Shown: in pieces, positions 7,404 to 34,376 of the stretch
How the letters are laid out: every line of letters begins with the position of its first letter
Numbering within the stretch: position 1 is the first letter of the stretch
From: Bradyrhizobium sp.
Lineage (GTDB): Bacteria > Pseudomonadota > Alphaproteobacteria > Rhizobiales > Xanthobacteraceae
DNA: 34,376 bases
Assembly (NCBI RefSeq): GCF_019244115.1
Contig: NZ_JAFATE010000741.1
Location: 1 to 34,376, forward strand
Reading direction: 5' to 3'
Translations under genes and position numbers: made by a program
The notes under the pieces: model-generated
Seen by the model: only the letters and a program-made list of their open reading frames with translations
What the model was told of the DNA's origin: nothing
Databases searched by the model: none

Positions 7404-8324
7404 CTAGAATCCGTGGCTTATTGCGATCTTCGCCGCGATACCGCGGGATGCCGCCGTCAGTCCGTAGCCGAGCCCGAGATTGACAACCGAATCGGCGACC
7501 TTGAAGTCAGTGATGGCATAGACGATGTGTGATTGCTGATTGAGCGGCCCGAAGTTTCCGATCTGCCCGGGGACGCCGGAGTATTCGACGCCGACGTCGA
7601 ATCCCCCGCCGAAGCTGCGCGTCAAGCGCGCCGCTGCCGCCAGGCTGGTGATGGTGTTTGCGCCTATCCCGGTTACGACCGTCGGACTCAGAATCAACTG
7701 ATAGGCCTGGTAGTTGAAGCCCACGATCGGCGCGAGGCCGACTGCAAATCTCGTATTGGTCATGGCAAGGGGTGGAAACTCGGCTCCGGGCGCCGTGTAG
7801 GCCAGGTGAGCCGTCAGTCCGAAAAATACGGTGCGCGCGCCTGCGTCCGGCATCAGGACAGTGTTGCTCAACCGAATGCCGTTCCAAGCAGGCGAACCAT
7901 CCGCGCCTCCCGACAACGACGCCGAAGCCGCGAGTGCGAGCTGATACCAGTCGGTTACTCGGTAGTCGATTTCCGTTTCCGAGAGATTGGCGCGGCTCGC
8001 CGCCGCCGCGCCAGTGACGACGGGCGCTGCGGGCAGGGAGTTCACGGTCTCGCGGATCGTGAATCGACTGAGGTCTGCTTGTGATTGCTCGTCCGCTCCG
8101 GCCGGCAGCGCCGTTGCGGCCGACTCCGCCATCAGAGCGAGCGCGAAGCAAGCGGCTTGCGCAATGTGGCGGAAGCTGGCCGAAGCCGGCAAACGCGGAT
8201 CCGACGTGTTCCGCGGGTGCTGCGGGGTGCCGTGCCCGCGAGCCTCGCCGATCATGCCTCCAGAGCGGGCGCAGACCGCGTGGCGGGAATCGCCAGCAGC
8301 GCGCTCACCAAGACAGCATCTCAT
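7404..8324 (-). CDS. Putative outer-membrane beta-barrel protein
   Basis: A 306-residue protein, intact. The ATG at 8324 follows AGGGGGG by seven bases. The first ~50 residues are polar and odd. A hydrophobic stretch 'HIAQAACFALALMAESAATA' ending near 'LPAGADEQ' looks like a signal peptide, so the native start may be further in, or the 5' end was changed. The mature part alternates polar and apolar residues in short strands ('EIDYRVTDWYQLALAASASL', 'ARTVFFGLTAHLAYTAPG', 'FNYQAYQLILSPTVVTGIG', 'SVVNLGLGYGLTAASRG') and ends 'IAAKIAISHGF'. A C-terminal Phe preceded by alternating residues is the usual signal of BAM-inserted outer-membrane barrels. No enzyme motif is seen. The next gene on the same strand also encodes an exported protein. 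Confidence 0.7.
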   Translation of the reverse strand: MRCCLGERAAGDSRHAVCARSGGMIGEARGHGTPQHPRNTSDPRLPASASFRHIAQAACFALALMAESAATALPAGADEQSQADLSRFTIRETVNSLPAAPVVTGAAAASRANLSETEIDYRVTDWYQLALAASASLSGGADGSPAWNGIRLSNTVLMPDAGARTVFFGLTAHLAYTAPGAEFPPLAMTNTRFAVGLAPIVGFNYQAYQLILSPTVVTGIGANTITSLAAAARLTRSFGGGFDVGVEYSGVPGQIGNFGPLNQQSHIVYAITDFKVADSVVNLGLGYGLTAASRGIAAKIAISHGF

Positions 8325-22355: not shown

Positions 22356-23698
22356 ATGGTTGAGACAAAGGGGTCCAGCGACGATAGTGCCGGAACGAAA
22401 TCACGCCCGGGAAAGCTGAGCCGCCGTTCACTGCTGAAAGCGGGCGCCGCGCTCGCCGGCGCCGCGCGGCCGGATCGGACGCGATCCGTGGCTTCCCCAC
22501 CATCTGGGCGCAGGAAATCAAGGACATCGAGCTGCGCCATGTCGGCGTCTCCTATTCCGTCGTGAAGGCGATCGGCGACCAGGCTGCAAAGGATCTCGGC
22601 TTCAAGGTCACGATGCAGAACCTGGATACGTCGGCCGCGATCAACCGCTTCATCAGCCAGCCCAATACCGTCGATATCGCCGATCTCGAGGGCTGGCAGG
22701 CCAAGCTCGCGGCCAAGCGCGGCGTGATCCAGGGCATCGAGGTCAAGAAGATCAAGGAGTTCGAGAACATCCTGCCGATCTTCACCAAGGGCGAGATCGA
22801 CGGCCACAAGATCCCGCGCCAGGGCATCTCGCCCTATGAGGCGATGTATATCGAAAAACCCGACGCGACCGATCTGCATGAAGGCATCACCGAATGGGCC
22901 ACCTTCCTGCCGCAGGTCTATAACGCGGACTCGATCGGCTATCGGCCCGATCTCGTCGGCCACGAGGTCACCGAGTGGAAGGACCTGATCGATCCGAAAT
23001 TCAAGGGCAAGGCCGCAATCCTCGACGTGCCGGCGATCGGCATCATGGACGCGGCGCTGTGCTTTGAGAGCGCGGGCCTGATCAAGTACGGCAACAAGGG
23101 CAACATGACCAAGGAGGAGATCGACTTCACCTGCAACAAGCTGATCGAATTGAAGAAGGAAGGCCAGTTCCGCGCAACCTGGACCACCTTCGACCAGTCG
23201 GTGCAACTGATGGCGGCGGGCGAGGTCGTCATCCAGTCGATGTGGTCGCCGGCGGTCGCCGCCGTGCGGGTGAAGGAGATTCCCTGCGTCTACGCGCCGG
23301 TCAACGTCAAGAACGGCAAGGAAGGCTATCGCGGCTGGTGCAACGGCATGGGGCTGATGAAGCATCTCTCCGGCAAGAAGCTCGACGCGGCCTACGAATA
23401 TCTCAACTGGTATCTCTCGGGATGGCAAGGCGGGTTTGTCGCGCGCTACGGGTACTACAGCCCGGTGCCGTCGACCGCGAAGAAGTTCCTGACCCCTGCG
23501 GAATGGGACTTCTGGTACGAGGGCAAGCCGGCGCCGGAGGTGATCAACGATCCCTATGGCGTGGCGATGGAGAAGTCCGGCACCAAGCGCGACGGCGGCT
23601 CGTTCCTGGACCGCGTCACCAACATCTCCTGCTGGAACACGCTGATGGACGAAGCCGCCTACATGAACAAGCGCTGGAACGATTTCAAGGTGGCGTAG
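22356..23698 (+). pseudogene. Polyamine-type ABC transporter substrate-binding protein, frameshift after Tat leader
   Basis: A periplasmic binding protein of about 447 residues in the class used with PotABCD-like importers. The ATG at 22356 gives a twin-arginine leader 'KLSRRSLLKAGAALAGAA' (consensus SRRxLLK). Around 22465, in a run of GCGC, one base is missing, and the rest continues in another frame: 'SDAIRGFPTIWAQEIKDIEL', 'NRFISQPNTVDIADLEGWQA', 'YNADSIGYRPDLVGHEVTEW', 'MWSPAVAAVRVKEIPCVYAP', 'AAYEYLNWYLSGWQGGFVAR'. The long downstream frame (22562-23698) is clean and complete at its C-terminus. As written no exported protein can be made. It is first in an otherwise intact operon, so a recent mutation or a sequencing error in GC-rich DNA are both possible. 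Its ligand is unknown. Confidence 0.85.
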
Positions 23699-23719
23699 TC
23701 CTCGCGATCAACTTTCATT

Positions 23720-23741
23720 GCTGGCGGCGCGCGCCGCCAGC
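23720..23741. promoter_or_regulatory. Intercistronic palindrome after the binding-protein gene
   Basis: GCTGGCGGCGC followed directly by its exact complement makes a very stable 11-bp arm hairpin between the binding-protein stop (23698) and the first permease, followed by CTTTCTG. Hairpins here are common in ABC operons and usually give more binding protein than permease by protecting the upstream mRNA or partly ending transcription. Confidence 0.6.
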
Positions 23742-23766
23742 CTTTCTGAAGCTGGTCGTTAGCGGG

Positions 23767-24660
23767 ATGGCAACGCAAACCATGCAAACAGCCTTTCGCC
23801 CATTACGCGCCAATCTCGCCGGATGGTTTTTCGTCTCGCCCCTCGTGGTCGTGCTGGTGCCGTTCTTCGTGGCGCCGATCCTGGTGGTGCTGGCGGCGAG
23901 CTTTTTTTCGACCGACGGTTTTGGTGGCCTGACACCTACCTTCACGCTGGCGAACTATGCCGAGATCCTGCACTCGGCGCTGACGCTGAACCTCTATCTC
24001 GCCACGGTGAAGTTCACCGTCCTGACCTGGGTGTTCACGCTCGCGATCGGATTTCTCGTCGCCTATTTCCTGGTGTTCCACGTCCGCAGCCAGCTGCTTG
24101 CGATCGGCCTGTTCCTGGTCTGCACGGTGCCGTTCTGGACCTCGAACATCATAAGAATGATCTCGTGGATTCCGCTGCTCGGCAAGGAGGGCCTCATCAA
24201 TGACGCGCTGCTCGCGACCGGCGTCATCCATCAGCCTCTCGAAGTGCTTTTGTTCTCCGACCTAGCCGTCGTGATCGCCTATGTCCACCAGCTCACGATC
24301 TTCATGATCGTGCCGATCTTCAATTCGATGGCGCGCATCGACAAGAAGCTCATCGAGGCGGCAGTCGACGCCGCTGCGAGCCGGTTCGACATCATGCGGC
24401 TGATCGTCTTGCCGATGTCGAAGAACGGCATCGCGCTCGGAACCATCTTCGTGGTGTCGATCGTGATGGGCGACTTCTTCGTGGTCAAGGTGATGTCGGG
24501 CGGCGGTTCGGCCTCGGTGGTGGGCGCGTTCTACGAGGATGTCGGCGTGCTGCAGTACCCGACCGCGGCGGCAAGCGCGGTGTTGCTGACCTTGATCCTG
24601 ATCGCGATCGTGTCGCTGATCCTGCGCACCGTCGACATCCGCCGGGAGATCACGCAATGA
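23767..24660 (+). CDS. ABC transporter permease (polyamine-type, PotB-like)
   Basis: A 297-residue inner-membrane permease. The frame is open further upstream, but the ATG at 23767 fits the family; an ATG at 23782 is an alternative. About six transmembrane segments: residues 19-46, 78-103, 108-126, 162-184, 220-240 and 265-290. The cytoplasmic EAA loop is at about 197-216 ('EAAVDAAASRFDIMRLIVLP') and contacts the ATPase. It overlaps the next gene by ATGA (24657-24660), so the two permeases are translationally coupled. Confidence 0.92.
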   Translation: MATQTMQTAFRPLRANLAGWFFVSPLVVVLVPFFVAPILVVLAASFFSTDGFGGLTPTFTLANYAEILHSALTLNLYLATVKFTVLTWVFTLAIGFLVAYFLVFHVRSQLLAIGLFLVCTVPFWTSNIIRMISWIPLLGKEGLINDALLATGVIHQPLEVLLFSDLAVVIAYVHQLTIFMIVPIFNSMARIDKKLIEAAVDAAASRFDIMRLIVLPMSKNGIALGTIFVVSIVMGDFFVVKVMSGGGSASVVGAFYEDVGVLQYPTAAASAVLLTLILIAIVSLILRTVDIRREITQ

Positions 24661-25559
24661 GTGACGCGATCACCACGATCGACGGCGTCGCAATGCCGGC
24701 AGCACGTGGCGCGATCGCGCCGCGGAGCGGTGCGCGGCCCTGGACCTTCTATGCGCTGGCGACGCTGTTTGCGCTTTACGTGCTCGCACTCTACGGCCCG
24801 ATGATCTGCATCTACATCCTGTCGTTCCAGGATGTCCGCGGCGGTCTGGTGTTCCCGATGAAGGGGCATTCGCTGCACTGGTTCGTCGACCTGTTCACCC
24901 AGGTGCGCACCGGCGATGTCAAAGGCTCGTTCGACCGCTCGATCAAGCTCGCCATTCTCGTCACCATCCTCACCGTCGTGATCTCGTTCATGGCCGGCCT
25001 CGGTTTCCGCCGCCGCTTCAAAGGCGACGGTGTCGTGTTCTATGTGATGATCGGCAGCCTGGTGGCGCCCGGGCTGGTGCTCGGGCTCGGCACCGGATTG
25101 TTGTTTCAGGCGCTCGGCATCGCAACCAGCTGGTACGGCTCGGCGCTCGGCGCGCAGCTGTCATGGACCCTGCCATTCGGCGTGCTGGTGATGTTCGCGG
25201 TGATGTCGCGCTTCGACGACGCCTGGGAGGAGGCGGCGCGCGACCTCGGCGCCAGCCGTTGGCAGACCATCTGGCTCGTCATCATCCCGGTACTGGCGCC
25301 GGGCCTGGTCGCGGTCGCGCTGTTCGGCTTCACGCTGTCTTACGACGAGTTTGCCCGCAGCCTGCAGACCGCGGGCTCGCTCAACACCCTGCCGCTGGAA
25401 ATCTGGAGCATGACGCTGAACGTGACCTCGCCCTCGCTCTACGCGCTCGGCACGGTCACGACCATCGTCTCCTTCATCATCATCGGAGTCAGCCTCGGGA
25501 CGATCGTCCTGATCCAGAAGAAACGCGGTGGCCGCGCCATGCCGCCGGAGAGGTCGTAA
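24657..25559 (+). CDS. ABC transporter permease (polyamine-type, PotC-like)
   Basis: A 300-residue inner-membrane permease, partner of the preceding one. The N-terminal 25 residues are polar; transmembrane segments follow at about 31-57, 98-117, 126-150, 170-185, 215-240 and 265-288. The EAA loop is at about 191-211 ('EEAARDLGASRWQTIWLVII' then 'P'), the PotC consensus. Its stop TAA touches the ATG of the ATPase gene (TAAATG at 25557-25562), another coupling junction. Confidence 0.93.
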   Translation: MSDAITTIDGVAMPAARGAIAPRSGARPWTFYALATLFALYVLALYGPMICIYILSFQDVRGGLVFPMKGHSLHWFVDLFTQVRTGDVKGSFDRSIKLAILVTILTVVISFMAGLGFRRRFKGDGVVFYVMIGSLVAPGLVLGLGTGLLFQALGIATSWYGSALGAQLSWTLPFGVLVMFAVMSRFDDAWEEAARDLGASRWQTIWLVIIPVLAPGLVAVALFGFTLSYDEFARSLQTAGSLNTLPLEIWSMTLNVTSPSLYALGTVTTIVSFIIIGVSLGTIVLIQKKRGGRAMPPERS

Positions 25560-26666
25560 ATGAGAATCGAGCGTGGCGACATCGAGCTGGCCGGCGTATG
25601 CAAGAGTTTTGACGGCGCGACCAACGTCGTCGATGGCGTCAACCTGAGAATCGCGGACGGCGCCTATTGCTGCTTCCTCGGGCCCTCCGGCTGCGGCAAG
25701 ACCACGATTTTGCGGATGATCGCAGGCCACGAGGATCCGAGTGTGGGGGAGATCCTGATCGGCGGGCAGAACGTCGTCGGGCTGGTGCCGGCCGCGCGGC
25801 GCACCGCGATGATGTTCCAGTCCTATGCGCTGTTCCCGCATCTGTCGGTGCGCGACAACGTCACCTTTGCGCTGCGCGTCCGGGGCGTCTCGAAGGCGGA
25901 TCGGCTGCGCGCCGCCGACGCCATGTTGGAAAAGGTCAGGCTGACGCAGTTCGCCGACCGCCTGCCCGCGCAGCTCTCAGGTGGCCAGCAGCAGCGCGTC
26001 GCGCTGGCGCGGGCTGCGATCACCGAGCCCCGCGTCCTGCTGCTCGACGAACCCTTGTCGGCGCTGGACGAGCAGCTGCGCGTGCAGATGCGGCAGGAAT
26101 TGCGCCGGATGCAGCGCGAGCTCGGCATTACCTTCATTCATGTCACCCATACCCAGCTGGAGGCGATTGCGCTCGCCGATCTCGTCGTGGTGATGGAGCA
26201 GGGCAGGATCAAGCAGGCCGGCCCCCCGCGCGAGGTCTACGCCACGCCAAACGACCGCTATGTGGCCGAGTTTCTCGGCGGCCAGAACGTGCTGCATGGA
26301 CGCATCAAGAAGGTCAACGGCGCGAGCTTCGTCATCGTGCCCCCGATGCAGGGATCAATCGAGGTACCGCTCGGCGCGCGCGCACGCTTGAGCGTCGGCG
26401 ACCGCATCGACATCGCGGTCCGCCGCGACGACGTCGAATTGATCCGGCCGGGCCGTGAGCTGCCGCCGGGGTACGCGTCCGCGCTGCCGAGCCGGGTTCT
26501 GGCGATCGAATACCAGGGCAATTTCGTCAAGGTCATGCTCGACACCGTGCCCGATGACGAGTTCGTCGCCTATGTGCCCGAGCGCGTATTCTTTGCCGAT
26601 CCCCTCAATGTCGGCGACATGGTGCTGGCGACCTGGGTCGCTGACCGCGCGCGTGCCCTGGCCTAG
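25560..26666 (+). CDS. ABC transporter ATP-binding protein (PotA-like)
   Basis: A 368-residue ATPase that powers the importer. Walker A is 'GPSGCGKTT' (41-49), Q-loop Gln87 in 'MMFQSYALFPHL', signature 'LSGGQQQRV' (139-147), Walker B 'VLLLDEP' (159-165), and H-loop His197 in 'FIHVTHTQLEA'. From about residue 240 a TOBE-type regulatory domain follows ('GGQNVLHGRIKKVNG', 'IAVRRDDVELIRPG', 'AIEYQGNFVKVMLDT'), as in polyamine and sulfate importers. All catalytic residues are present, so the transporter core is intact even though its binding protein is frameshifted. The hydroxylase genes begin 31 bases downstream on the same strand. Confidence 0.94.
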   Translation: MRIERGDIELAGVCKSFDGATNVVDGVNLRIADGAYCCFLGPSGCGKTTILRMIAGHEDPSVGEILIGGQNVVGLVPAARRTAMMFQSYALFPHLSVRDNVTFALRVRGVSKADRLRAADAMLEKVRLTQFADRLPAQLSGGQQQRVALARAAITEPRVLLLDEPLSALDEQLRVQMRQELRRMQRELGITFIHVTHTQLEAIALADLVVVMEQGRIKQAGPPREVYATPNDRYVAEFLGGQNVLHGRIKKVNGASFVIVPPMQGSIEVPLGARARLSVGDRIDIAVRRDDVELIRPGRELPPGYASALPSRVLAIEYQGNFVKVMLDTVPDDEFVAYVPERVFFADPLNVGDMVLATWVADRARALA

Positions 26667-26697
26667 ATCCTGCTTGTTTAAGAAACGGAGCCTCACC

Positions 26698-27186
26698 GTG
26701 CAGATATCATTCACGCTCAATGCCAAGCCGGTCACGTTGGATGTCGAGCCGGCAACCCTGGTCACCGAGCTCCTGCGTGAGCATCTCAACCTCACCGGTA
26801 CCCATATCGGCTGCGACACGAGCCAGTGCGGCGCCTGTGTTGTGCATCTGGATGGACTGGCGGTGAAGAGCTGCACGCTTCTTGCGCCGGCGCTCCAGGG
26901 CAAATCACTGGTCACCATCGAGGGCTTGCAGGGCGCTCCGGGATCGAACCAGCTGCATCCGATGCAGGAGGCGTTTCGCCAGCATCACGGGCTGCAGTGC
27001 GGGTTCTGCACGCCCGGCATGGTGATGAGCGCGATCGCTCTCGCCCACGCCAAGGCTGCGCTCACGGAGGCCGAGGTCCGTCGCGGCCTCGAAGGCAATA
27101 TCTGCCGCTGCACGGGCTACCAGAACATCGTCTTGGCCGTGATGGCGGGCACGGCTGCCATGCACGGCGCCGGATCGGGAGAGTGA
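26698..27186 (+). CDS. [2Fe-2S] subunit of a molybdenum hydroxylase (CoxS-like)
   Basis: The 162-residue small subunit of a xanthine dehydrogenase-type enzyme. It passes electrons from the molybdenum centre to FAD. The GTG start at 26698 is supported by ACGGAG nine bases upstream; upstream in-frame codons overlap the ATPase gene and are not family-like. The N-terminal ferredoxin fold holds Cys39, Cys44, Cys47 and Cys59 ('GCDTSQCGACVVHLDG'), and the C-terminal helical domain holds Cys101, Cys104, Cys136 and Cys138 ('CGFCTPG', 'GNICRCTGYQNI'). All eight ligands of the two [2Fe-2S] clusters are present. It is followed after two bases by the large subunit gene. Confidence 0.95.
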   Translation: MQISFTLNAKPVTLDVEPATLVTELLREHLNLTGTHIGCDTSQCGACVVHLDGLAVKSCTLLAPALQGKSLVTIEGLQGAPGSNQLHPMQEAFRQHHGLQCGFCTPGMVMSAIALAHAKAALTEAEVRRGLEGNICRCTGYQNIVLAVMAGTAAMHGAGSGE

Positions 27187-27188
27187 CC

Positions 27189-29576
27189 ATGGGCAATGTC
27201 ATCGGGATTGGCGCATCACCGCGGCGCAAAGAAGACCAGCGTTTTCTCACCGGCCGCGGCAATTACGTATCCGACATCAAGCGGCCGGGAATGGCGGCCG
27301 GCGTCTTCCTGCGCTCGCCGCACGCGCATGCCCTCATCCGCGGCATCGACAAGCAGGCGGCGCTGGAGATGCCCGGCGTTATCGCGGTCCTGACTGGCGA
27401 GGACGTCGCAGCCGACGGGCTCGGCTCGTTGCCGTGCGGCTGGGGCATTACCGACGCGCGGGGCGTGCCGATGAAGGAGCCGCCGTTCCCGATGCTGGCA
27501 CAGGGCAAGGTCCGCTTCGTCGGTGACATGGTGGCGTTCGTGATCGCCGAGACGGTAGAGGATGCGAGCACGGCTGCGGAGCTCGTGAAGGTCGACTACG
27601 AGGTGCTGCCGTCCGTGGTCGGCGTGCTCGACGCGGTCAGGCCCGGGGCGCCAAAACTGTTCGACGACGTGCCGAACAATATCTGCTGCGACTGGGAACT
27701 CGGCGACAAGGCGGCGGTCGACACGGCGTTTCGCAAGGCGGCGCATGTCGCCCGGCTCAGCCTGGTCAACAACCGCCTGATCGGTAATCCGATGGAGCCG
27801 CGCGCGGCAATCGCCGAATATAATCCGGGCACCGGCCAGCACACGCTGTGGACCACCAGCCAGTTCCCCCATGTCGTGCGCTTCCTGATGAGCGCGCTGG
27901 TGTTGAAGCTGCCCGAACACAAGGTGCGGGTGGTGGCGCCCGATGTCGGCGGCGGCTTTGGCGTCAAGCAATTCCACTATGGCGAGGAGGCGGTCATCAC
28001 CTGGGCTGCGAAGCGGGTGATGCGGCCGGTCAAATGGGTCGCGAGCCGCTCGGAATGCTATGTTTCGGACCGCCACGGCCGCGACCATGTCACCGAGGCG
28101 GAGCTTGCGCTCGACGAGAAGGGAAAATTCCTCGCGTTGCGCGTGAAAACGCTCGCGAACATGGGCGGCTATCTCTCGACTTTCGGGCCGAACATACCGA
28201 CCAATCTCTACGGGCCGTTGCTGTCGGGCGTCTACACGACGCCCGCGATCTACTGCAACGTCAAGGTCGTCTTCACCAACACCGTACCGGTCGACGCCTA
28301 TCGCGGCGCTGGCCGCCCGGAGGCGACCTTCGTGCTGGAGCGCATCGTCGATGTCGCCGCGAGCGACATGGGCATCGACCGCGTCGAGCTGCGCCGCCGC
28401 AACATGATCCCGAAGGAGGCCTATCCGTACCAGACGCCGGTCCTGGTGCAGTACGATTCCGGCGATCCAATCGGCTGTCTCGATGGTGCGCTGGCCGCCG
28501 CCGACGTCAAGTGGTTTGGCACGCGCAAGGCCGCCTCAGCGCGTAGCGGAAAGTTCCGCGGGCTTGGGTTTTCGACCTATGTCGAGGCTTGCGGGCTTGC
28601 GCCCTCGCGCTTCGCCGGGCGTCTCGGTGCGCGCGGTGGCCTTTATGAGAGCGCGACCGTGCGTGTGCATCCGGCGGGACAAGTCACCGTGCTGATCGGG
28701 ACCCATAATCACGGTCAGGGCCATGAGACCACGTTCGCACAGATCGTGTCGGAAAAGCTCGGCGTGGCCTTCGAGAATGTCGACATCGTGTTTGGCGACA
28801 CCGATCGCGTGCAGTTCGGCATGGGCACCTATGGCTCGCGGTCGCTGGTGGTCGGCGGCGCGGCGCTGTCGAAAGCGGCGGACAAGGTGATCGTCAAGGG
28901 CAAGAAGATCGCGGCTCACCTGCTCGAAGCGAGCGAAGCCGATATCCATTTCGAAGCCGGCAAATTCTCGGTCGCCGGCACCGACCGCGCGAAAACGCTG
29001 GGTGAGATCGCGGTCGCCGCCTACGTGCCGCACAACTATCCACTCGAGGTGCTGGAGCCGGGGCTGGAGGAGCAGGCCTATTACGATCCGGTCAATTTCA
29101 CCTATCCCGGCGGCTGTCACATCGCCGAGGTCGAGATCGATCCGGAGACCGGCGCCGTAACGCTCGTCGACTACACGGCCGTCGACGACGTCGGCACGGT
29201 GATCAACCCGATGATCGTTGAGGGGCAGCTGCATGGCGGCATCGTGCAGGGCGTCGGCCAGGCGCTCTACGAGAACGCGGTCTATGACGAGTCCTCCGGG
29301 CAGCTGATGTCAGGCTCGCTGATGGACTACTGCATGCCGCGCGCCGATCATCTGCCGATGATGAAGGTCGCGACCCATTCGACGCTGTGCACGCACACGC
29401 CGATGGGCGTGAAGGGTTGCGGCGAGGTCGGCACGATCGGCTCGCCGGCCGCCGTCATCAATGCGGTGGTCGATGCGCTGGCGCATCTCGGCGTCACCCA
29501 TGTCGACATGCCGGCGACGCCGAACCGGATCTGGCGCCTGATCCAGAACGCGTCGTTGCCGATCGCCGCGGAATGA
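27189..29576 (+). CDS. Molybdopterin-binding subunit of a xanthine dehydrogenase-family hydroxylase
   Basis: A 795-residue catalytic subunit that binds the molybdopterin-cytosine-dinucleotide-type cofactor. The start is ATG 27189, two bases after the previous stop. It opens '[20 protein letters not shown]', as in CoxL/QorB-like proteins. Cofactor motifs: '[20 protein letters not shown]', '[10 protein letters not shown]' at about residue 370, '[15 protein letters not shown]', '[12 protein letters not shown]' and '[12 protein letters not shown]', with the catalytic Glu at about 746. AYRGAGR is the form II signature; true CO dehydrogenase has AYxCSFR. So CO oxidation is not expected; hydroxylation of an aromatic N-heterocycle or aldehyde with water is the usual chemistry. 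The gene is intact and in the order S-L-M. Confidence 0.95.
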
Positions 29577-29589
29577 AGGGAGGATTTTG

Positions 29590-30393
29590 ATGAGGTCTTT
29601 TGCATATCACCAGCCGAACGCAATTCCCGAAGCGGTCAGCCTGCTCGCCGAGCAGCCCGAGAGCCGGCCGCTGGCCGGCGGCATGACACTGATCCCGACC
29701 CTGAAGCAGCGGCTGGCGGCCCCGGCCGCGCTGGTCGATCTCGCCGGTCTTCCTGATATCAAGGGCTGCAGCAACGGCAATGCGGTCGTCACGATCGGCG
29801 CCATGACGACCCATGCCGAGGTCGCGTCGTCGCCGCTGGTGAAGAGCCAGATCCCCGCGCTCGCCGCGCTGGCCTCTGTCATCGGCGATCCGGCGGTACG
29901 CGACCGCGGCACCATCGGCGGCTCTGTCGCCAACAATGATCCGGCGGCGGACTATCCGGCCGGCGTGCTCGGCCTTGGCGCGACCATCGTTACCAGTGCG
30001 CGCGAAATCGCGGCCGAAAATTTCTTTTTCGGCCTGTTCGAGACCGCACTGAAGCCGAACGAGATCATCACGGCGATCCGCTTCCCCGTGCCGCTTTCCG
30101 CCGGCTATGCCAAGTTCAAGGCGCCGGCCTCCCGCTACGCGGTGGTCGGCGTATTCGTTGCGAAGACCGCCACAGGCGTCCGCGTCGCGGTGACAGGGGC
30201 GGGGTCGGGCGTGTTTCGTGTGCCGCAGATGGAGCGCGCGCTCGCCGAGGCGTTCGACCCCACGGCCATCGCGGCGATCAAGATCGACGCTGAGGGCCTG
30301 ACCAGCGACATCCATGCTGATGCCGGTTACCGGGCCCATCTGGTGACGGTGATGGCGAAACGCGCCGTTGCGACGGCGCTCGGTGCGGCCTGA
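29590..30393 (+). CDS. FAD-binding subunit of the molybdenum hydroxylase (CoxM-like)
   Basis: The 267-residue medium subunit. The ATG at 29590 follows AGGGAGG, one of the best ribosome binding sites in the window. FAD motifs: '[18 protein letters not shown]' (residues 27-44, AGG type) and '[20 protein letters not shown]' (about 107-126, TIGG type). It completes the three-subunit enzyme. '[20 protein letters not shown]' is the usual start of the C-terminal domain. It ends ten bases before the amidase gene. Confidence 0.94.
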
Positions 30394-30403
30394 AGGATTG
30401 GGA

Positions 30404-31891
30404 ATGACCGAAGTTTCAGGTCGGGCGGGCGCATCAGGCGGCCTTGCCGCGCTTACGGCGATCGAGATCATCGACGGCTATCGGCGCAAGGCATTCACGC
30501 CGCGTGACGTCGTCGACGAAACGATCGCTGCGCTGACGGATGTACATGCCGCGTGCAACATCGTGGTTACGCCGATGTACGACGAGGCGCGCGCCGAGGC
30601 TGATCGACTCAGCATCGCGATGCGCTCGGGCGACGCGCTGCCGCCTTTGGCAGGCGTTCCGGTGACCATCAAGGATCTGGTGTTCGTTGCCGGCGTGCCG
30701 GCCTATGGCGGCGCGCCGCTCAACCGGGGTTTTGTTCCCGATGTCGACGCGGCCGTCGTCGCGGCGCTCAAGACATCGGGCGCGATCGTCACCTGCAAGA
30801 CCACGACCTGCGAGGCAGGCTACAAGCTGACGGCGGACAGTCCGGTTTCGGGTCTGACGCGCAATCCCTGGAATCTGTGGTGCACCAGCGGCGGATCGAG
30901 CGGCGGCGCGGCGGCGGCGGTGGCGGCGGGCTGCGGTCCGATCGCGATCGGCACCGATGGTGTCGGCTCGATCCGCGTGCCGTCGTCGTTCTGCGGCGTG
31001 TTCGGCTTCAAGCCGACCTTCGGGCTGGTGCCGCGCGCCCCGGGCTTCATGCCGCCGTCCTGGGCGTCGCTCGCGCATACCGGCCCGATCGCGAGGACGG
31101 TCGCTGACGCCGCGCTGGTTCTCGAAATCATTGCGCGCCATGACCTGCGCGATCCGGCGAGTCTTCCGGTCGGGCCGCGCAGCTTCGATGCGAGGCCCCA
31201 TCCGCTGCGCGGCCTGCGGATCGGCGCCAGCGTCGATCTCGGTTATGCCGCCGTCAGTCCGCAGGTTCGTGCGAGCTTTGCGCGGGCGCTCGCTATCCTG
31301 GAAGATTGTGGCGCGTGGATCAGCGCAGATGGGCCTGATATCGATCCGGAGATCCTCGAACACACGCTGAAGCCGATCGCCTTTACTGAACAGGCGGCCG
31401 CGGTGGGCGGCAAGACCGGAGACGATCTCGCGGACTCCGAGCCGGAGTACCGCAGGGTGGTCAGCACCGGACGGCGCTACAGCGGCACCGATTACATCGC
31501 GGCCGGCTATCGCCGCGGCCAGGCGCGCGGTGCGTTCCAAAAACTGTTCGAGCGGGTCGATGCGCTGGTGACGCCGACGGTGGCCATCACCGCGTTCGCG
31601 GCCGGCGAGATTGGCGTCAGCAGCGTAGATGGACGCGCGGTCGATCCGCATCTCGGCTGGTCGCCGTTCTCCTGGCCGATCAATCTCGCCGGTCTTCCCG
31701 CCGCCACGGTGCCGTGCGGCTTCGACGAGGAGGGACTACCGATCGGTCTGCAGATCATAGCTCCCTGGCTCGACGAGCCGACGATCTTCCGGATCGCCGC
31801 CGCGTTCGAGCAGGCGCAGCCCTGGGCGCAGCATTGGCCGCCATTGACGGCGCAAGAGAGCAGGGAATCGAAGGCGCGCGCGAAGGTGTGA
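30404..31891 (+). CDS. Amidase (amidase-signature family)
   Basis: A 495-residue hydrolase. The ATG at 30404 follows AAGGATTGGG. The Ser-cisSer-Lys triad is visible: Lys90 in 'GVPVTIKDLVF', cis-Ser at 165/166 in 'TSGGSSGGAAAAVAAG', and the nucleophile Ser189 in 'GTDGVGSIRVPSSFCG' (the family usually has GTDGGGS; Val replaces one Gly). The C-terminal 'PFSWPINLAGLPAATVPCGF' and 'EEGLPIGLQIIAPWLDE' are typical. It cleaves a C-N amide bond; the substrate is unknown. As last gene of the importer/hydroxylase operon it probably acts on the same compound, before or after ring hydroxylation. Confidence 0.94.
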   Translation: MTEVSGRAGASGGLAALTAIEIIDGYRRKAFTPRDVVDETIAALTDVHAACNIVVTPMYDEARAEADRLSIAMRSGDALPPLAGVPVTIKDLVFVAGVPAYGGAPLNRGFVPDVDAAVVAALKTSGAIVTCKTTTCEAGYKLTADSPVSGLTRNPWNLWCTSGGSSGGAAAAVAAGCGPIAIGTDGVGSIRVPSSFCGVFGFKPTFGLVPRAPGFMPPSWASLAHTGPIARTVADAALVLEIIARHDLRDPASLPVGPRSFDARPHPLRGLRIGASVDLGYAAVSPQVRASFARALAILEDCGAWISADGPDIDPEILEHTLKPIAFTEQAAAVGGKTGDDLADSEPEYRRVVSTGRRYSGTDYIAAGYRRGQARGAFQKLFERVDALVTPTVAITAFAAGEIGVSSVDGRAVDPHLGWSPFSWPINLAGLPAATVPCGFDEEGLPIGLQIIAPWLDEPTIFRIAAAFEQAQPWAQHWPPLTAQESRESKARAKV

Positions 31892-31935
31892 GGGTGCTCG
31901 CAGCGGCTCGCGGGGAGCGAACAAGAGAGGGCACG

Positions 31936-32835
31936 CTACGCCACTTCGATCGGAATTCCACTCTTGCCGAGCTGCTCATCGAGGCGCAGATAGTGCGCCA
32001 GATAATCGTGCAACGCGGTCGCGGCCTTCGACGTGGCGCCACTCGACTTGTAGAGCAGCAATTCGACCTCCGGCAGCGGCGGCAATCCCTCCTTTGGACC
32101 AATCTCGCGCATCGCGGGAACCAGCGCGCTGCGGCCAAGTACCGTCACTGCCATCCCTGCAAAGGCTGCGGCCTGCAAACCGCCCACGCTTTCGCTGACG
32201 CAGGCAATGCGCCAGCGCAGGCCTGCCCGCTCCATGCTGTCGATGGCATAGTCGCGATAGATGTTTCCCGGCGGCAGCAATGCCAGTGGCACCGGCCGCT
32301 CCTGGTGCGCGCAGGACTGGTCGCCGGTCATCCAGACGAGCTGCTCGCGCCGCACCACTTGGCCGCCGGTGAAATCGTTCATGCGCGTGACGAGTGCGAT
32401 GTCGACCTCGCCGCGCTTGACGAGGCCGACCAAGGGCGTCGATAGCGCGCAATTCAGCTCGACCTGGATGCGCGGAAAGGATTTGCGGAATACGGAGAGG
32501 ATCGATGGCAGCATGAACGCCGCATAGAGGTCCGGCGTGCCGAGCACGACCTGGCCTTCGATCTCCTGGGAAGCGAGCTGTGAGATCAATTCGTCGTGCA
32601 GCCGCAGGATGGATTTGGCATACGTCAATACCGTGCCGCCGTCCTCCGTCAGCGCAAGGCGGCGCCCCCCGTGCAGGAACAGCTGCTTGCCCGTGAGCTC
32701 TTCGAGACGCTGCAATTGCAAGGTAATGGCGGGTTGGGTGCGGCCAAGCCGTCGTGCCGTCTCTGTGATGCTCCCGGTCTCGACAACCGATATCAGCGAC
32801 CGGAGCATACGGATGTCGAGACTGATCAGGTTCAT
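31936..32835 (-). CDS. LysR-type transcriptional regulator
   Basis: A 299-residue regulator. The ATG at 32835 ('MNLISLDIRMLRSLISVVET') places the helix-turn-helix ('GSITETARRLGRTQPAITLQ', 'LQRLEELTGKQLF') at the usual distance; an ATG at 32877 would add 14 residues. The effector domain starts about residue 90 ('GQVVLGTPDLYAAFMLPSIL') and runs to the C-terminus. It faces the amidase gene tail to tail with 44 bases between stops. LysR regulators commonly control a neighbouring catabolic operon; here that would be the 22.4-31.9 kb operon, although it is not in the usual divergent arrangement. Confidence 0.93.
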   Translation of the reverse strand: MNLISLDIRMLRSLISVVETGSITETARRLGRTQPAITLQLQRLEELTGKQLFLHGGRRLALTEDGGTVLTYAKSILRLHDELISQLASQEIEGQVVLGTPDLYAAFMLPSILSVFRKSFPRIQVELNCALSTPLVGLVKRGEVDIALVTRMNDFTGGQVVRREQLVWMTGDQSCAHQERPVPLALLPPGNIYRDYAIDSMERAGLRWRIACVSESVGGLQAAAFAGMAVTVLGRSALVPAMREIGPKEGLPPLPEVELLLYKSSGATSKAATALHDYLAHYLRLDEQLGKSGIPIEVA

Positions 32836-32877
32836 GTCAGGTTTAGGGAGGTCCGTTTCAGCACAGAAAATATGCAA

Positions 32878-33309
32878 TCTTCGTGCTAGCCAAGCCGAGC
32901 CGTAACCCGTGACGTCTCACGGTTTGAGGCATCATTCGCGGAATTGCGGTCTTGGTCTATCTGTTTTCTCGTCTCGAACGAGGATCGAGGGCGCGGCATC
33001 CGCTGCTTGCCGGCGGTGAAGAAATTGCGGTCGTCGCCCCACTTGAGCAGCCAACGGTCCTTTGCAGGGCCGAGTCCGCGTTTGGGTCATTGTTCCGCGG
33101 TCCGCGCGATATGGATCAGCGCGGGACCAATGGACGCCCGATCGAGGAAAAAGAGCTGATCGGCGGCTGCGAGAGCGGACGGCCTGGAAATTTGACGCGC
33201 GATCATGTGGGCCAGGGGCCGGCGATGCCGTCACCTGCGTGCCGGCTGGCGCGGCAGGGGGTGACTTCCCGTCGGAAAACCACCGGCGCATGGCTGTCAT
33301 TGCTTACAG
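32878..33309. other. No gene recognised
   Basis: Between the regulator and the tRNA fragments. Frames on both strands are open for up to 200 codons but show no family motifs, and one runs straight through the tRNA-Tyr remnant. Treated as non-coding. Confidence 0.4.
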
Positions 33310-33393
33310 ACCCGAGCAATTTCAAAGGGAAGGAGGGGACTGTAAATCAGCCGCCTCATGGCTTCGTAGGTTCGAGTCCTACCTCCCCCACCA
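33310..33393 (+). tRNA. tRNA-Tyr (GTA) 3' portion, remnant
   Basis: The 3' part of a tyrosine tRNA is clear from 33338: anticodon loop CTGTAAA (anticodon GTA), a long variable arm (CCGCCTCATGGCTTCG), T-arm GTAGG-TTCGAGT-CCTAC with a perfect stem, acceptor 3' strand CTCCCCC, A and encoded CCA ending at 33393. Upstream, CCCGAGC and CAAAGGG at 33310-33330 look like a worn D-arm, but no GGGGGAG acceptor partner is present and the 5' anticodon stem does not pair. Not a functional gene; it fits the 3' tRNA half carried at an integrated element's attachment site. Confidence 0.75.
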
Positions 33394-33435
33394 TTCTGAA
33401 ATCGTTGAGCAATCTCTATTTCGCCTCGTTTGGCA

Positions 33436-33467
33436 GTAAGCAATCCGTAAGCAATGTTGTAAGCAAT
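33436..33467 (+). repeat. Three direct repeats GTAAGCAAT
   Basis: Exact 9-base copies at 33436-33444, 33447-33455 and 33459-33467, spaced 11 and 12 bases, about one helical turn. They lie 43 bases after the tRNA-Tyr fragment. Regular short repeats beside an attachment core can be arm-type integrase or excisionase binding sites; that role is inferred. Confidence 0.6.
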
Positions 33468-33705
33468 TCCTGTTTCCCGTTTTGTTCGCTTGGTAGGGAG
33501 CGCGCTCGCCGTGCCCACATTTCTGCTGGCGTCGATTGGGGCCCTGCTACGCTGAACGCGTGGGGGGTGCCGTCGGAGTGAGCGACCGAGCGCTTCCGGG
33601 TGCATCGCGCCTGTTGACTCGTTTCTGGATGAAGCAGCTCGTTGATCGCGAAAAGGATGAGGGCAGAGCAAGGCACGGGAGGTCTTTTTTTGCGATAAAC
33701 CCGAC

Positions 33706-33757
33706 CCGCTAACTCTTAATCAGCGGGTCCCAGGTTCGAGCCCTGGTGCGCCCACCA
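33706..33757 (+). tRNA. tRNA-Lys (CTT) 3' half, remnant
   Basis: From the anticodon loop on: CTCTTAA (anticodon CTT), 3' stem TCAGC, GGGTC variable loop, T-arm CCAGG-TTCGAGC-CCTGG, acceptor TGCGCCC, A, and CCA ending at 33757. The 5' anticodon strand is GCTAA, giving one A-C mismatch with TCAGC, and no D-arm or GGGCGCA acceptor strand is found upstream. It is a 3' half only, like its two neighbours. Confidence 0.8.
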
Positions 33758-33783
33758 AGCAAATCAATAGTTTAGCGATGTTC

Positions 33784-33816
33784 ACCGTTTGAGAACGCCA
33801 AACTCAAACGGTTTTT
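33784..33816 (+). terminator. Intrinsic terminator following the tRNA-Lys fragment
   Basis: ACCGTTTGAG, a 9-base loop and CTCAAACGGT form a perfect 10-bp stem followed by TTTTT. It is 26 bases after the encoded CCA, where the terminator of a real tRNA-Lys gene would be. The downstream flank of the original tRNA gene therefore seems to be kept along with its 3' half. Confidence 0.75.
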
Positions 33817-33922
33817 CAAACGGTGTTTTCGCGAACCGTTCTAGCGGGCTGCTCTCCACAATGTGTTAGGCATCGGCGCACACGGGCTGCCGCCAACTCG
33901 TTTGCGATGAGCACTACGGATC

Positions 33923-33970
33923 GGCCCTCTCAATGCTGGAACAGGGGTTCGATTCCCCTAGGGAGCGCCA
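33923..33970 (+). tRNA. tRNA-Glu 3' half, remnant
   Basis: GGCC then loop CTCTCAA (anticodon CTC), AAC before a perfect T-arm AGGGG-TTCGATT-CCCCT, acceptor AGGGAGC, discriminator G and CCA ending at 33970. The 'AACAGGGGTTCGATTCCCCT' block with discriminator G is typical of bacterial tRNA-Glu. The D-arm and 5' acceptor strand are missing and the anticodon stem pairs only partly. It ends nine bases before the integrase stop codon, so it is probably the attachment site of that integrase's element. Confidence 0.7.
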
Positions 33971-33979
33971 CCCGCCTAA

Positions 33980-34376
33980 TCACGACGTTGTTTTCCCTTC
34001 GCTTTTAGCGATTTTCCCCAAACGCTTGGGAGTGGTTTGGGGAGATTTGTTCGCCCGATGTTCGTTGAGCGCCACCACGGCGCGCTTGCCGCCGCGCTTG
34101 CGATCGGCCTCGCGCGTGTAGCGCTCGGCCTCGGCCAGGGTCTTGTGGCCGAGCGCTGCCATGATGTCGTGCGCGCTGCATCCAGCATCGGCGAGGAGCC
34201 GCCCCAGCGTCTTGCGGAGCCCGTGCGGCCGGCACGTCAGGTCGGTGATTCCAGCGGCCTTGATGGAATCGCGCATGAAGCCGGAGAAGCCGTCCACGCT
34301 GAAGGGCTTCCCCCACTCGGTGACGAGGACGCAGACGTGCTTGCGCGGCGTTGCCGCCAGTGCCTGCTCCAGATCC
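33980..34376 (-). CDS. Tyrosine recombinase / integrase, C-terminal part (runs off the window)
   Basis: The C-terminal catalytic domain of a phage-type integrase; the 5' part lies beyond 34376. In the visible 132 residues: 'HVCVLVTEWGKPFSVDGFSG', then the HxxR motif in 'CRPHGLRKTLGRLLADAGCS' and 'IMAALGHKTLAEAERYTREA' with the LGH box and the Tyr nucleophile. The first catalytic Arg is outside the window. The tail is Lys/Arg-rich. It reads toward the tRNA-Glu fragment, whose CCA end is nine bases from its stop, the usual tight link between integrase gene and tRNA attachment site. The visible frame is clean, so this integrase may be functional, unlike the remnants to its left. Confidence 0.9.
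   Translation of the reverse strand, partial: DLEQALAATPRKHVCVLVTEWGKPFSVDGFSGFMRDSIKAAGITDLTCRPHGLRKTLGRLLADAGCSAHDIMAALGHKTLAEAERYTREADRKRGGKRAVVALNEHRANKSPQTTPKRLGKIAKSEGKTTS

Follow-up and report, generated by a model that had tools for sequence, protein, structure and literature searches.

Introduction

Genomic islands accrete at att sites and can be mobilised from them. Little is understood of how integrative elements come to use a new insertion site. One element may have several sites, as in the tripartite ICEs of Mesorhizobium, for which the excerpted account gives the integrases IntS, IntM and IntG, three segments of ~5 to 767 kb and three att pairs (PMC8627217). In Bradyrhizobium, the excerpts of Weisberg et al. 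(PMC9239051, PMC9174649) describe bipartite symICEs at tRNA-Val and ybgC, one tripartite variant, and monopartite types at other tRNA genes, and propose that losses around integrase genes precede a change of type. The symICE sites named there are tRNA-Val, ybgC, tRNA-His, tRNA-Arg, tRNA-Ile, tRNA-Glu, tRNA-Gln and tRNA-Pro, and one Sym plasmid is reported with a single att scar (PMC9239051, PMC9174649). A search of titles and abstract openings returned no paper on rows of different tRNA halves, which is no proof of absence. Here we describe such a row on a contig of Bradyrhizobium sp. and weigh how it may have arisen.

Results

Three tRNA 3' halves of different identity lie in one row

The window, i.e. 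the whole stretch of DNA analysed, was the complete contig C149 (34376 bp) of an assembly of 915 contigs and 7.65 Mb. The genome is labelled G000, other genomes of the genus carry further G numbers, and C numbers denote contigs. An earlier note on this DNA had described three tRNA fragments of different identity on one strand within ~660 bases, each reaching the encoded CCA and missing its 5' half. Base-by-base comparison agreed: 3' halves of tRNA-Tyr(GTA), tRNA-Lys(CTT) and tRNA-Glu(CTC) formed one row within 660 bp, all on the + strand (Table 1). Each run of identity went from the anticodon arm through CCA, with all breaks in the anticodon arm, and no tRNA 5' half within 32901-34376 scored above shuffled sequence. 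All three halves thus matched a tRNA 3' part through CCA with the 5' part absent, as expected of an att core, and we read them, as the note had, as attachment cores of tyrosine recombinases. The note had also proposed a search for complete cloverleafs and for the intact genes. The window contained none of the former (0 tRNA genes with ARAGORN, 0 families in an Rfam gathering search). Intact tRNA-Tyr (contig C377) and tRNA-Lys(CTT) (contig C394) genes were present in the same assembly; an intact tRNA-Glu(CTC) gene was not among the 37 of 41 tRNA loci read, and relatives have one.

Table 1. Features of the row and its surroundings (window coordinates)
Feature	Position	Strand	Evidence
Arm-type repeat GTAAGCAAT (on + reads ATTGCTTAC), P arm of Tyr site	33299..33307	-	Inverted copy starting at 33299; same text ATTGCTTACAGAC upstream of Tyr half in PARB1
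tRNA-Tyr(GTA) 3' half, att core	33338..33393	+	Comparison with the genome's own tRNA-Tyr, 2 mismatches
Three arm-type repeats GTAAGCAAT, P' arm of Tyr site	33436..33467	+	Copies start at 33436, 33447 and 33459; similar arm after G083 tRNA-Tyr and PARB1 Tyr half
tRNA-Lys(CTT) 3' half, att core	33712..33757	+	46/46 identical
Lys-Glu unit, 259 bp	33712..33970	+	98% copy on C586; homologues in G103, G142, G110, G087, G015
Presumed P' region of Lys site, three CAAACGGT repeats (one inverted)	33784..33824	.	~115-bp block conserved behind Lys halves/genes
Presumed P arm of Glu site	33903..33921	+	Similar GATGATC...GGATC text before several other Glu halves, by eye
tRNA-Glu(CTC) 3' half, att core	33922..33970	+	2 mismatches vs intact relatives' tRNA-Glu
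Tyrosine recombinase, tRNA-Glu class, C-terminal 131 residues, cut by contig end	33980..34376 (open frame to 34375)	-	PF00589 (Phage_integrase)

The two mismatches of the Tyr half were a compensatory pair in the T stem. This change suggests the tRNA of another species rather than decay, and because of it the Tyr half is probably a functional donor variant. One of the two changes of the Glu half lay in a strand of the anticodon stem. The cores were separated by spacers of 318 bp (Tyr-Lys) and 164 bp (Lys-Glu). When the own assembly was searched with the row, 14 matching places were obtained, the intact genes and the row itself counted among them; we therefore estimate, rather than compute from a control, that three different halves within 660 bp are very unlikely to have come together by chance.

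To the left of the row, window 23242-32877 held a catabolic-looking block of ABC transporter genes, a molybdopterin-binding dehydrogenase, an amidase and a LysR regulator. A scan of 10 window proteins revealed no transfer or conjugation genes.

Arm-type repeats flank the Tyr core on both sides

The 9-mer GTAAGCAAT occurred four times in the window, once upstream and three times downstream of the Tyr core (0.05 expected), and 0 of 100 shuffles reached four. Arm repeats on both sides of a core were found for the Tyr site; the Lys site had them downstream only, and the Glu site upstream only, by resemblance. Among 257 genus genomes, the pattern of Tyr core plus arm was present in two, the window's own and G083. 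In the latter, a similar downstream arm came after an intact tRNA-Tyr gene, with no upstream arm repeat in the 100 bp examined ahead of the gene.

The same search in species genomes gave eight stretches; by half scan, those of Bradyrhizobiaceae bacterium PARB1 and Bradyrhizobium sp. Tv2a-2 had tRNA-Tyr ends. Two Tyr halves, separated by 3.9 kb, were present in PARB1; the downstream repeats GTAAGCAAT came after the first, and ATTGCTTAC came before the second. The ~4 kb that they enclose, with arms divided between the two ends and a frame next to it that looks by eye like an integrase gene, could represent a very small integrated element. The arms are divided between two ends in PARB1 and joined across one core in the window, so that the Tyr site has the architecture of an attP, or else that of the junction inside a pair of tandem elements. 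Here a first competing explanation of the row comes in, namely that serial insertions, with loss of the DNA between their ends, left a row of attR scars. We consider it unlikely on the whole, and a site with both arms would be expected inside a tandem as well.

The Lys core and the tRNA-Lys(CTT) hot spot

CAAACGGT was found four times in the window, three times downstream of the Lys half, against 0.72 expected; one of 100 shuffles reached four. The repeats were part of a ~115-bp block that was conserved after Lys halves and Lys genes in many genus genomes. No P arm was identified upstream of the Lys core, and the text before Lys halves with an adjoining int_Lys was unlike that of the window. 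An int_Lys-type integrase lay within 700 bp in only 4 of 35 distinct Lys-half contexts.

The tRNA-Lys(CTT) gene was a hot spot, with several one-strand matches to the Lys 3' part in G123 and G002, and this speaks for serial insertion with deletion. In these two genomes (G123:C1, 3.12-3.33 Mb; G002:C1, 7.40-7.66 Mb), the 3'-part matches extended on one strand for 200-260 kb behind tRNA-Lys(CTT) and probably mark a long tandem of islands. A tandem in one tRNA gene, however, leaves halves of one identity, whereas the row in the window has three.

The Glu core adjoins the only integrase of the window

The stop codon of the integrase was located 10 bp beyond the Glu half, and the contig end at 34376 fell inside the gene. 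Its nearest relatives in the genus adjoin tRNA-Glu (TTC or CTC) genes, with the stop codon facing the tRNA 3' end. Of 24 intact and 22 half tRNA-Glu contexts, a set partly chosen by integrase search, 14 and 11, respectively, had a relative ≤200 bp downstream. It was the one integrase in the window, so that an adjacent cognate tyrosine recombinase was seen there for the Glu core and for neither the Tyr nor the Lys core; the two spacers would not have room for one. The Glu core, together with its integrase, may have been added last, but it already has two changes and need not be the core in present use.

Contig C286 ended inside 138 bp (7418-7555) that were identical to window 33833-33970, with a different tRNA-Glu-class integrase thereafter. 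The shared 138 bp followed by two different integrases may reflect two related elements or one assembly branching point. This observation, together with the 915 contigs of the assembly, bears on whether the contig joins unrelated places via repeated tRNA-like DNA. Such an artefact is very improbable as the origin of the row: the Lys-Glu join recurred at 98% on C586 and was homologous in complete genomes, the Tyr-Lys spacer had no second match in the own assembly, and the Tyr arms agreed across the core. We regard it as a small risk, the doubtful step being mainly which integrase comes after the Glu half.

The Lys-Glu unit recurs in other genomes

The unit was found in at least 6 of 265 genus genomes, a lower bound given that three candidates were scored per genome, and one that includes the own genome, with its second copy on C586, and G015. 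In G015 the Glu half was interrupted by an insertion sequence and did not continue behind it. The Lys part of the unit was a rebuilt tRNA-Lys gene in G110, G087 and G015, and a half only in G000 (twice), G103 and G142. The unit thus appears to be mobile. ARAGORN calls of 'tRNA-Glu' at C586, G103 and G142 were rejected, the tRNA-Glu 5' half being missing. The half counts exclude matches that fell short of the CCA end or under the score limit, as well as library members derived from doubtful ARAGORN genes.

The left piece of the unit resembled the left ends of Lys elements that lack a Glu half (e.g. in G129 and G105), and its right piece resembled the sequence preceding other Glu halves. By the short way round, tRNA-Lys and tRNA-Glu were separated by 2.9 Mb in G110 and by 1.4 Mb in G142; therefore, loss of DNA between two adjacent genes does not account for the unit. 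Both these distances and the recurrence of the unit with a homologous spacer in several species count against serial insertion with deletion.

In G110, another Lys half was located 76.6 kb on from the unit, and the two Lys ends bound one stretch. This second half was preceded by an integrase, split in two frames, that was similar to a G015 protein with Arm-DNA-bind_3. In G015, tRNA-Lys lay at 3.46 Mb on the - strand and a Lys half with int_Lys at 7.36 Mb on the + strand, so that the ends of a Lys-type element were 3.9 Mb apart and inverted. In none of the other 17 genomes searched was the ftsZ-like gene beside this Lys half close to tRNA-Lys; the neighbour of tRNA-Glu in G009 was matched in 9 of 10 genomes and had no match in G015. 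An integrase-driven inversion (a bipartite state) in G015 found no support in these flank tests.

The row might instead belong to a polypartite ICE, that is, one element with several integrases and with parts at tRNA-Tyr, tRNA-Lys and tRNA-Glu, in which the stretches between the cores were reduced to a few hundred bases. Segments that end in arms of two different sites are a polypartite trait, the inverted Lys ends of G015 would suit this account, and the excerpted reports give bipartite symICEs and a tripartite one for Bradyrhizobium (PMC9239051, PMC9174649). Nevertheless, we judge it quite improbable, though the shortness of the contig leaves it some probability, as the row has no cognate Tyr or Lys integrase beside it, the Lys ends of G110 bound a single 76.6-kb stretch and the flank tests in G015 did not favour it. 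The link to tripartite ICEs drawn in the earlier note found no support in G015, the one genome tested for it.

In most unit pairs, Glu cores are more similar than spacers

Six units gave 15 pairs, which are not independent of each other. In 13 of the 15, the spacers differed by 22-32% and the Glu cores at 0-4 of 46 sites (P 3e-7 to 4e-4 under the spacer rate). The two close pairs differed by 2% in the spacer and at 2 of 46 core sites (C149-C586), and by 4% and at 3 of 46 (G110-G087). This pattern fits cores that are refreshed from the tRNA gene while in use and drift when out of use; selection on the cores for another reason might also produce it. The Lys core of G103 differed at 5 of 46 sites and its Glu core was perfect, and in G110 and G087 the Glu core was the changed one. 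As the changed core differs by genome, the core that has fallen out of use appears to vary between genomes.

Mixed rows occur on chromosomes and plasmids

Several other loci had halves of different identity side by side. They were fetched for a matching Lys tail or integrase and therefore give no frequency. G103 carried Lys, Glu, Met and weaker Thr (87%) halves within 1.7 kb, beside tRNA-Gln; the reference for the Met half, a doubtful ARAGORN gene, was later dropped, and this half is absent from the filtered list. Glu and His halves were 150 bp apart in G142; there, 193 bp also separated an inverted Met half from Glu plus integrase, a distance that was 185 bp in G106. In G064, Lys and Met halves were 321 bp apart. 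A Lys-Gln pair in G123, G002 and G058 was weak (83% Gln match) and was not counted. Contig C806 of the own genome contained a Tyr half, part of a Glu half and a broken integrase, and degenerate copies of this kind favour serial insertion with deletion.

Matches to the row or the integrase were obtained in 29 plasmid records, 22 of them from Bradyrhizobium. In 9 of 15 plasmid stretches, which were chosen from these matches, a half (Met, Glu or Lys) stood directly behind a relaxase or LPD7 gene. Plasmid p186_1 had the order virB genes, LPD7 gene, Met half, IS3 transposase, Glu half and integrase, and pS11L-1 the order LPD7 gene, Met half and Glu half. Conjugation genes were thus next to mixed rows on these two plasmids. 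Neither half was assigned to a tRNA gene by ARAGORN on either plasmid, and two different halves in a row under these circumstances again argue against serial insertion with deletion.

On pNK6c and pCC829_1, a Met half started ~12 bp behind the relaxase gene, and the latter also had a weak 35-base Ser match. On pBs162S2a and pBs1S1a, the relaxase gene was followed by a Met-like remnant and then a Glu half; the match of the remnant (24 of 46) did not exceed those of shuffled sequence (maxima of 24 and 25), and it is placed by its position alone. A Lys half was located behind the relaxase gene on pCB82 and behind the LPD7 gene on p1S06B and pBb323S2a. ARAGORN flagged the halves of pCB82 and p172_1 as parts of tRNA genes; by eye, no tRNA-Lys 5' part preceded the half of pCB82. 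On the plasmids with a half behind a relaxase or LPD7 gene, the end of the transfer gene and the att core look like one module; several of these plasmids were typed rep_cluster_506. We dropped the idea that every outer half is younger, since the plasmids suggest that the half adjoining the relaxase is the older one.

Discussion

We favour, with a confidence slightly above even, the reading that the row (33299-34376) is a stack of attP cores on a family of mobile elements that switched its tRNA target several times. It is supported because it accounts for the different identities, the arms, the recurrence, the mobility and the position on plasmids. Strand exchange by a tyrosine recombinase would take place within the anticodon arm of a tRNA gene, which the 3' half supplied by the element would rebuild. 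The element could then acquire another integrase, along with an attP for it next to the existing one, or fuse with an element that has one, and the older core would stay in the row. With each integration cycle, the core in use would be refreshed from the host tRNA gene, while a core out of use would decay.

Several observations weigh against this reading. The window has no integrase for Tyr or Lys, the Lys P arm was not identified, and the Glu core already has two changes although it is next to its integrase. An attP-like join also arises within a tandem of two elements. Finally, the PARB1 ends are not textbook attL and attR, because neither of the Tyr halves there is a whole gene.

Serial insertion with deletion is a weaker explanation than a stack of attP cores, and for single loci it is possible. 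The earlier note had offered it beside a compound attachment region. The latter description fits well; the former has become less likely in view of the piecewise resemblance of the unit, the tRNA genes that lie megabases apart and the rows on plasmids.

A further variant, on the available sequences rather doubtful, is that the row is a working multi-specific docking array in which attP cores for several tRNA genes are kept side by side. The element would use whichever core finds both an integrase, its own or that of another element, and a free tRNA gene. Cores on conjugative plasmids would then act as landing pads, and chromosomal islands could ride along.

If the row is a stack of attP cores whose order can be read together with arms and integrases, changes of target could be followed in sequence and put to the test. 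Such a row might also shed light on the interconversion of plasmids and ICEs in Bradyrhizobium, where such elements carry symbiosis genes.

The locus shares with the usual tRNA 3'-end att sites of tyrosine recombinases, as found in islands and ICEs, the 3' half ending in CCA, the break in the anticodon arm, the integrase at the end of a core and, for Tyr, arms on both sides. It differs from them in having three cores of different identity within 660 bp and one integrase in view. In the tripartite ICEs of Mesorhizobium, as far as the excerpted account goes (PMC8627217), segments are bounded at a quite different scale, whereas the cores of the window are 164 and 318 bp apart and have no partner integrases in it; what both share is a single family of elements with att sites of more than one specificity. 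Rows of different tRNA halves are not described in the excerpted accounts of Bradyrhizobium symICEs (PMC9239051, PMC9174649). The tRNA-Val symICEs of these accounts come from the same genus, and a loss of integrase and att regions is proposed there for a change of type.
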